Source: Planctomycetota bacterium
GTDB taxonomy: Bacteria > Planctomycetota > Planctomycetia > Pirellulales > Thermoguttaceae
Assembly: GCA_030612765.1 (NCBI GenBank)
Contig: JAUWNG010000002.1
Coordinates: 1-64,000, forward strand
DNA length: 64,000 bases
Reading direction: 5' to 3'
Notes under the pieces: generated by a model
The model's database searches: none
Told to the model about the DNA's origin: nothing
What the model saw: the letters and a program-made list of their open reading frames with translations, nothing else
Translations under genes and position numbers: made by a program
Shown: piece after piece, positions 37,165-39,736 of the stretch
How positions within the stretch are numbered: position 1 is the stretch's first letter
Layout: every line of letters starts with the position of its first letter

Positions 37165-37551
37165 CAGCACTTACGTTTTAAGCGCAGTCTCGTTGCGAAA
37201 TGAATAGCCCTGGTTTTAAGCGGTTCGAGAACATCGGCGGACGGCGGCGAATCGACGTAAGAGTTAACTGGCGAAATTGGGAATTTTTTCCAGTTAATTC
37301 CAACCGAAAAATCGACCTTAACCTTAATAACAACATCGGCTTGCGGCGACGATGCAAAAACTTTTGCAATCACCCCTCCTGCGGGGTATGCGCGACGAGG
37401 TCATTCTACCAGCCGAAAACGCCTGAAAAAAGGCTGTTTTCTGGCCGCCGGTATTTATGCACTTTTTCGCCTGGGGCTATGGCGGGTGCAAAAACCGCTT
37501 TTCACGCCCGAAATCAGCGGTCAGCGGGCATCCGCCACCTAATCACCCCGC

Positions 37552-37934
37552 GGGTGCATTCCGCACTTTGTAATGTGTAATGTTGTTTGCGGTGATTACT
37601 CTTTACCATCCGTTTTTCTCCGTATGCGGTACATGCCGAAAAAAATGACTGAAAGCATTATGTTTCCTTGGGCCGAAGGCCCTCCGGTTCTCCCAGCCCC
37701 GGGCAACGCCCTGTGGAAGGGTGGACGGCGCATCTGATTTTCCGGCCCCACGGGCCCACCGTTCCGCGCGGCGCACCCTTGGCCCGGTGGGCCGCCGCGC
37801 CCGTCTCGCGCGTCCGCTCCCCCGGGCGTTGCCCTGGGCTGGGTGAACGGCCGCCCCTTTGGGGCAACAATACACTAATGTCACGTAATGGAGAATGAAC
37901 CTCGAAACGTCCATGCAAAGTGCGGAATGCACCC
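37552..37934. mobile_element. 383 bp non-coding element with perfect ends
   Basis: GGGTGCATTCCGCACTTTG at the left end and its exact complement at the right. The 9-base duplication TCACCCCGC flanks it at 37543-37551 and 37935-37943. The interior carries a large GC-rich palindrome (GGGCAACGCCC at about 37701, GGGCGTTGCCC at 37823) and no gene. The right duplication contains the dnaA stop codon. Confidence 0.93.
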
Positions 37935-39386
37935 TCACCCCGCCGTCAGACGACACTCGACTTGACGAATGGCGTCGTCTACCGGCCAGCGACGCTCGGC
38001 CAGATCCATCGGTGAACCGGACGCCATCCAGCCGTCCACGCGCTTCTGCGCCGAGACGACCGTGCTGTGGCTGCGGCGGCCGAAGAAGTGGCCGATCTCG
38101 CTCAACGCGGCGCGGGTGTGCTTCCGGGCAAGCCACATCGCCAACATCCGCGGATGGCTCACCCGCTTCCCCCTGCCGCCCGATTGCAGACTGGACGGCT
38201 CGATGCCGAAAACCTCGCAAACGGCCTTTTCGATGTCGGGCAACCGCACGACGCGGGCGCTGCCGCGGATCAGATCGGCCAGCGCCTCTTCGGACATCTT
38301 CAACGAGATCGGCCGGCCCAACGCCTCGCCGGTCGCCTGCAACCGGCAAAGTGCGCCGGAAAGCTCTCGGGCGTGGTTCGTAAGCCGCGAGGCGACGTAC
38401 TGCTGGACCTCCGGCGGAACGTCGATCTTCATCCGCCGGGCCATCTGGGCAACAATCCCCAATCGCGTGGCGTAGTCGGGCGGCTCGATCCGGCAGACCA
38501 GCCCGCTCGATAGGCGAGTGGTCAGCTCCGGCCCCAGTTCGGCCAGTTCGGCGGGCGAACGGTCGGCCGCGAAGACCAACTGCCGCCCATCGCGGAGGAG
38601 ACCGTCGATCGTGTGCAGCAGTTCGATCTGCGTGGCACGTTTGCCGACGAAGAATTGCAGGTCGTCGAGTATCAGCACGCCAACGCCGCGGTACTTGCGG
38701 CGGAAGCTGGGCAGACCGCTGCCGCGCAACGCCTCGAGGAAGTAACTGGTGAACTGCTCGGCCGAAAGGTAGAGCGTGGACGTGCGGTTGTGCAACTTTC
38801 GGGCCGCCGACCAAATGCCCTCCAACAGATGGGTCTTGCCCACGCTGGTCGATCCGTGGAACATCAACGGGGTCAACTGGCCGGGTCGATTGACGATCAT
38901 CCGCGCCGAGGTGATTGCCAGCCGATTGGTTTCGCCCGTGACGAAGGTATCCAAGCTGGCGAATCGGCGTCGCGTCGTTGCGGGGGCCGCCGCGTGCAAC
39001 GGTGGGTTGGCGTGCCGTTGCTTGGAACAAGCAGTGCTTCTTTTGACGCCGTTTCCACACGGCTTCCGCGAAGCCGTGGCACACTCGCTGTCAGTCTGGT
39101 CAGGTTGCGTGGAATCCTCATCGCCGTCGCTGCCGGCGTCGTCGATATGAAACTCCAGCGACGGGGACTTGCCGAACACTTCGCGACACGCGTCCTCGAT
39201 ATGACGGCGGAAGTTCGTACGGATCCACTCCAAAAAAAACCGGCTGGGCGCGCCGATCCTCAACGCGCATCCGTCGAAGTCCAGCCGCGTCGCCGCGCCG
39301 AACCACAAATCGAATCGATCTTGCCCGACCTTATCGGCCAGCGAAGCTCGCAAAGCCGACACGATCTCCTTATCGTCCTTGGTCAC
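37935..39386 (-). CDS. dnaA: Chromosomal replication initiator protein DnaA
   Basis: DnaA binds the origin and opens the duplex. The 483 residues follow the family order: domain I (IVSALRASLADKVGQDRFDLWF), a variable linker, an AAA+ domain with Walker A STSVGKTHLL and Walker B LILDDLQFF, and domain IV with ARELSGALCRLQA and the HTH signature RRSHSTVVSAQKRV. Walker A is usually GGxGLGKTHLL, so STS is unusual. The start is GTG at 39386 with AAGGA about 12 bases upstream; a longer frame adds 113 residues of poor quality. dnaN is not adjacent. The stop lies in the target duplication of a 383 bp insertion. Confidence 0.92.
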   Translation of the reverse strand: MTKDDKEIVSALRASLADKVGQDRFDLWFGAATRLDFDGCALRIGAPSRFFLEWIRTNFRRHIEDACREVFGKSPSLEFHIDDAGSDGDEDSTQPDQTDSECATASRKPCGNGVKRSTACSKQRHANPPLHAAAPATTRRRFASLDTFVTGETNRLAITSARMIVNRPGQLTPLMFHGSTSVGKTHLLEGIWSAARKLHNRTSTLYLSAEQFTSYFLEALRGSGLPSFRRKYRGVGVLILDDLQFFVGKRATQIELLHTIDGLLRDGRQLVFAADRSPAELAELGPELTTRLSSGLVCRIEPPDYATRLGIVAQMARRMKIDVPPEVQQYVASRLTNHARELSGALCRLQATGEALGRPISLKMSEEALADLIRGSARVVRLPDIEKAVCEVFGIEPSSLQSGGRGKRVSHPRMLAMWLARKHTRAALSEIGHFFGRRSHSTVVSAQKRVDGWMASGSPMDLAERRWPVDDAIRQVECRLTAG

Positions 39387-39736
39387 TACAGGTGCATCCT
39401 TGGCACGAACGGCCTCAGTTGTTTTCAGAGAAGACCTGATTCTACAGATGCTAGCACCGCTGTCAAACGGGCTGGAAAGACCCGGCGATGGATTTTTTTC
39501 TCTTGCCGGTCCGACACGGTAAAATCCTCGGATTATGCCGTGTAAGAACCGATCGCAACGGGGGAAATATTTTTCGCTCGACCTCGGGCAACCGTGGAAA
39601 ACCTGTCGAGACGACGCCCGACGATAGGCGATAAACCCCTTGTCCGAACGGCACTTCCGCAAGACGGCCCAGGCAAGCTCACGAAAGGCAGGTTCCACGG
39701 GCCGTGCCGGACAATCTAAGGTCACATCATCGAAAC

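Follow-up and report, generated by a model that had tools for sequence, protein, structure and literature searches.

A probable ISKra4-type MITE enclosing a REPIN-like palindromic element at the 3′ end of dnaA in a planctomycete

The 383-bp element that adjoins the dnaA stop codon in the 64,000-nt stretch of planctomycete DNA analyzed here (the window) is very probably, judged from its sequence relationships, a MITE with ends of the ISKra4 family (Mutator-like DDE, p-MULT 4) that encloses a REPIN-like palindromic element. MITEs and REPINs are held to be separate kinds of non-autonomous bacterial DNA, which depend on DDE and Y1 (HUH) enzymes, respectively.

The element occupies positions 37552–37934 and is bounded by perfect 19-bp inverted ends (TIRs) and a perfect 9-bp target duplication (TSD), so that coordinates and 19/19 complementarity confirm what an initial annotation of the window had described (Table 1). 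In sequence of the same composition, we expect ~3 × 10−4 perfect 19-bp inverted pairs within 600 bp of each other anywhere in 64 kb, and the chance expectation for a 9-bp repeat exactly at the outer edges of the TIR pair is ~6 × 10−6. The annotation was also right that the duplicated bases carry the dnaA stop codon: the TCA of the right TSD reads TGA on the minus strand. Folding of the 401 bp as DNA yields −103.7 kcal/mol, compared with −72.4 ± 4.0 kcal/mol for shuffled sequences (z −7.7), and the ORFs over the interior are mechanical only. The interior had been described as a GC-rich palindrome with no gene; the strong fold and the ORFs agree with this description, which missed that the palindrome belongs to an independent family of repeats associated with a Y1 transposase. 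No further copy of these ends or this core is present within the 64-kb window, and scans of the window with Rfam at gathering thresholds and for tRNAs returned nothing.

Table 1 Features of the element beside dnaA and of its target
Feature	Position	Strand	Basis
9-bp TSD, left copy TCACCCCGC	37543..37551	.	direct reading; second copy absent at the G002 empty site
Left TIR GGGTGCATTCCGCACTTTG	37552..37570	+	19/19 complementary to right end
Left spacer, TIR to core	37571..37669	.	conserved among type A copies of G000/G002
REPIN-like core: outer hairpins 37670-37682 and 37853-37865, inverted arms, central hairpin 37743-37794	37670..37865	.	
Right spacer, core to right TIR	37866..37915	.	
Right TIR	37916..37934	-	19/19 complementary to left end
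9-bp TSD, right copy TCACCCCGC	37935..37943	.	includes final two dnaA codons and TGA stop
dnaA, target neighbor	37935..39725	-	TIGR00362, three Pfam domains, G002 ortholog

The target gene matches TIGR00362 with 347.8 bits (cut-off 343.9; E 1 × 10−103) and contains the Pfam domains DnaA_N, Bac_DnaA, and Bac_DnaA_C; the start of the ORF was picked mechanically and probably lies too far upstream. Its final codons GCG GGG TGA are the same in a sister species. In G002, a genome of the same genus with a DnaA ortholog of 92% identity, the dnaA end ...GACGGCGGGGTGATTAG corresponds to the predicted pre-insertion junction with a single copy of the TSD, and no trace of a TIR is found at this locus (best match 7 mismatches). 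The element is likewise absent at dnaA in G001, the third member of the genus. Comparison of the dnaA 3′ end in relatives, as proposed in the annotation, thus yields an empty site and not the same 383 bp at the same place, the outcome named there as counting against an insertion. On this allelic comparison, the 383 bp is an insertion. Beyond the insertion point, G002 and the window agree over 4 uninterrupted bp (TTAG), differ over ~240 bp, and then match again for >40 bp; the ~240 bp of unlike sequence in G002, 4 bp past the dnaA stop region (L087), has a palindrome of its own (ACGGGTAAGC...GCTTACCC).

The 19-base ends were sought elsewhere, and the home genome (G000, a 4.0-Mb MAG, 87.6% complete) contains 22 occurrences at ≤3 mismatches, some of them with TSDs, versus 0 for the reversed control. 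Type A copies on contigs C128 and C47 have their interior in common with the window element, where the former (C128:6501-6884) is flanked by the TSD GAGTAAAAC and the latter, an older copy, occupies the same place in G002. Type B copies on C95, C127, and C213 have only the ends in common with the window element. We gathered complete short TIR pairs from G000, G002, and G028/G063, resulting in 14 distinct elements. A TSD with agreement at 8–9 of 9 positions is present in 7 of the 14, compared with none of 182 mismatched pairings of left and right flanks; one further complete element has a 10-bp repeat, and in half of the 14 the TSD is degraded or missing. All 14 carry a palindromic core, drawn from at least two unrelated core families. 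Exact 19-base matches in named genomes fall nearly all in MAGs of Pirellulales/Planctomycetota; matches in Salinicoccus and Ca. Binatia are single, look like chance, and were set aside. By these sequence comparisons, the 19-bp ends define a multi-copy family with copies at unrelated sites and an empty allele. Many of the single TIRs are found close to the ends of contigs, at points where a type B copy has been split by another IS.

The ISKra4 group is characterized by inverted repeats of 18–39 bp with a terminal C and by direct repeats of 8–9 bp, and includes Planctomycetes among its hosts (Guerillot et al. 2014, PMC3942029); the family corresponds to p-MULT 4 of the prokaryotic Mutator-like DDE transposases (PMC3942029). 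The window element, with a 19-bp TIR starting GGG and a 9-bp TSD, falls within both ranges. A transposase at the 19-base ends, which the annotation had recommended looking for, adjoins them in a relative: in Planctomycetaceae bacterium S146_10 (WGDQ01000769), an ISKra4-like ORF follows the exact 19 bases at a distance of ~90 bp; it matches NF033572 with E 2 × 10−8, below the NCBIfam cut-off, and is incomplete because the contig stops within it. The same left end recurs with different flanks on another S146_10 contig, which begins inside it. The same 4.8-Mb genome contains a complete 1677-bp IS (G060 C555) with an ISKra4-type transposase (NF033572, E 3 × 10−37), whose TIRs GGGTGCAAGTCGCACTTTG and GGGTGCAGGTCGCACTTTG are 16/19 identical to the window TIR; no TSD is present at this complete IS. 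A further ISKra4-type IS in G039 is bounded by the TIR GGGTGCAGCCTGGACTTTG (L078), 15/19 identical to that of the window. The home genome, whose MAG is 87.6% complete, yielded no ISKra4-type transposase with the exact ends, and C204 holds only a C-terminal ISKra4 remnant followed by the related end GGGGTGCAGGAACGCACTTTTTT. From these resemblances we conclude that the element is an ISKra4-type MITE, an assignment that rests on relatives, with no partner in the home assembly. The dispersed ends with TSDs, the transposase beside the ends in a relative, and the empty site together bear out the view of the element as non-autonomous and inserted. Like ISKra4-family MITEs, it combines a TIR of 18–39 bp ending G/C and 9-bp direct repeats with a TIR common to ISKra4-type ISs and lacks an internal transposase; it differs from them in that its interior is a separate palindromic repeat instead of an internally deleted IS, and in that the exact autonomous partner is absent from its own assembly.

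Two observations concern the ISKra4-type ISs themselves. The frame of the transposase (G060 C555, L057, L075) breaks at a conserved T7-CCC run, and dropping one T joins the frames; frameshifted transposases have been described for the ISMich2 group (PMC3942029). In G056, twelve contig ends (including C36, C68, C69, and C73) break off after ~57 bp of a repeat that begins GGGTGCATCCTGCACTTTG; this repeat probably represents a multicopy ISKra4-type IS that the assembly lacks.

The 196-bp core of the element occurs at many sites of G000 without TIRs and with unrelated flanks. Its limits are set by its outer hairpins, GGGCCGAAGGCCC and GCCCCTTCGGGGC, and the standalone copies are sharp-ended. In the consensus fold of 23 aligned copies from three genomes, the inverted arms form a long stem, which is accompanied by a central hairpin and two outer hairpins. 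The fold comprises 57 pairs, for 10 of which at least one copy differs at both bases; since covariation contributes little and the alignment is highly conserved, we take the fold as support for a shared palindromic form and not as strong proof of selection on pairing. Matches to the core arms number 7–80 in each of G001, G004, G034, and G014; G001 and G014 have no TIR, and G034 has one with 3 mismatches. The type B core is likewise found without TIRs. As judged from its distribution, the core is an independent dispersed repeat, one copy of which lies inside the window element.

A gene for a Y1 transposase is linked to this core. On C215 of G000, an IS200-like Y1 gene (PF01797; NF033573) lies between two full cores; it contains one in-frame TAG near its start, and given this TAG the core may have lost its mobility in G000. 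Orthologs in G001 (85% identity), G034 (76%), and G028 (73%) have cores on both sides, and the ortholog in G004 (72%), which represents a fourth genus, is embedded in a core at its central hairpin, with the arrangement GGCCCAACGGGCCAACATTTCCT-ATG...TGA-GGAGAACGGTTGGCCC. The gene lies between atpA and atpG in G001, G034, and G028, which represent three genera; in G000 it is beside atpA, with the contig ending on the other side. It is single-copy per lineage, the next-best Y1 protein of each genome being <50% identical. Core arms are found in 5 of 5 genomes that carry the Y1 gene at ≥70% identity versus 6 of 55 others (Fisher p 8 × 10−5). Other Y1 genes are flanked by the type B core in G002, G006, and G004. 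The Y1 protein matches the NCBIfam model for IS200/IS605; no relative was found in the PDB.

Association of the core with a Y1 transposase gene at a stable atp location resembles the REPIN/RAYT pattern (Bertels and Rainey 2011, PMC3116915). In common with REPINs and RAYTs, (i) two REP-like hairpin arms are arranged in inverted orientation and occur in many dispersed copies, and (ii) a single-copy Y1 gene has the repeat on both sides and keeps its genomic position. Unlike REPINs, the core is 196–223 nt long with a third, central hairpin and with arms exceeding the 20–40 nt of a REP; its consensus ends without a GTAG/CGTC tag; the Y1 protein matches the IS200/IS605 model; and some core copies are enclosed by DDE-type ends. 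Because of the longer repeats, the missing GTAG/CGTC tag, and the IS200-type protein match, we call the core REPIN-like and not a REPIN. Palindromic derivatives of IS200/IS605 are similar in their Y1 HUH transposase and hairpin ends, and the Y1 gene within a core in G004 is arranged like an IS200-type element with a non-autonomous form; they differ in that the Y1 gene is present here once per lineage, syntenic between atpA and atpG, and not multicopy.

The most serious alternative, which we nevertheless consider unlikely, is an ordinary MITE with an internal palindrome of its own, where standalone cores are old copies that lack the ends and the Y1 genes are merely nearby. Cores on C8 and C179 do resemble type A remnants and keep pieces of the spacers. 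Most standalone cores, however, begin and end at the outer hairpins within unrelated flanks, the Y1 gene is placed between full TIR-less cores in four genomes and within a core in a fifth, and arm matches extend to G001, G004, G034, and G014, of which G001 and G014 have no TIR and G034 has the single 3-mismatch occurrence. That the ends derive from another family with 9-bp TSDs (IS4/IS5-like, for instance), so that the likeness to ISKra4 is coincidental, is very improbable. The transposase ORF next to the exact TIR is indeed partial and under the NCBIfam cut-off; against this stand the 19/19 identity beside that ORF in a 4.8-Mb genome with a second copy of the same end, the complete ISKra4-type IS with 16/19 identity in the same genome, the further one from another family with 15/19, and the agreement of repeat length, terminal G/C, and 9-bp direct repeat with the family description (PMC3942029). 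On the ISKra4 matches, we dropped an IS4/IS5-like origin of the TSD.

We see equally little reason to believe that the element is not a neutral insertion but has been retained beside dnaA because it serves a function there, for example by terminating transcription or regulating the gene. Its location directly after the stop codon and its strong fold could suggest such a role, which is opposed by the congener without an element at this site and by copies at unrelated sites that have only the ends in common. A terminator scan of the element in the direction of dnaA detected no stem with a T run after it, which counts against a role as dnaA terminator, and we consider this role unsupported. There is no sign that the location beside dnaA is more than incidental, and the insertion at dnaA is an ordinary one.

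If the element is a MITE with ISKra4-family ends and an enclosed REPIN-like core, an ISKra4-type transposase acting in trans would bind the 19-bp ends and move the 383 bp, the target would be cut at the dnaA stop codon with a 9-bp stagger, and repair would duplicate the target, so that dnaA keeps its stop. The core would have entered earlier, through the activity of the IS200-like Y1 enzyme or because two ends trapped it between them, and either of the two transposases could in principle mobilize it. Between elements of G000 and G028/G063, the TIR-to-core spacers are no more similar than shuffled sequences, nor do they resemble the subterminal part of the WGDQ IS beyond the level of shuffles. 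Since the spacers are dissimilar between these two groups and the cores of types A and B differ, cores probably became joined to these ends in two or three independent events; rapid spacer divergence could alternatively cause the difference between the G000 and G028/G063 groups.

We propose tentatively, and with more doubt than confidence, that in Pirellulales Y1-mobilized REPIN-like repeats have been repeatedly taken up by ISKra4-type ends as coupled systems and not by accident, a reading that covers type A (the genus of the window), type A′ (G028/G063), and type B. If true, such elements would be open to two mechanistically unrelated transposases, and the recurrence would mean that the two systems are coupled, through targeting or because elements that contain a hairpin spread better. 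Repeated joining, if true, would provide a natural experiment both on the spread of REPINs without their own enzyme and on the success of MITEs. The atp locus additionally provides a planctomycete example of a Y1 gene fixed in an operon together with its repeats. In the open-access literature, we found no title or abstract that describes such a composite under ISKra4 and MITE or as a chimera of MITE and REP/IS200.

The letters of the window core itself have to be read with care. Of its 14 private differences relative to other copies, 12 are A>C or T>G, compared with 11 of 113 differences in the dnaA comparison (p ~5 × 10−11), and contig C122 of G000 (L161 190-334) is garbled by the same A>C/T>G changes at the same central hairpin. 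Judged from this pattern, base-calling errors at the hairpin are the likeliest source of ~12 bases of the window core, which are for this reason unfit for dating the copy. A biological mutational burst was put aside, as C122 garbles alike at the same hairpin.

Type B palindromes, including those at the ends of C128 and C192 in G000, are themselves cut by other ISs at recurring positions: one of the interrupting ISs has an IS110-like start, MLYLGIDQHRKQ, and another interruption always follows ATAGCCCA.
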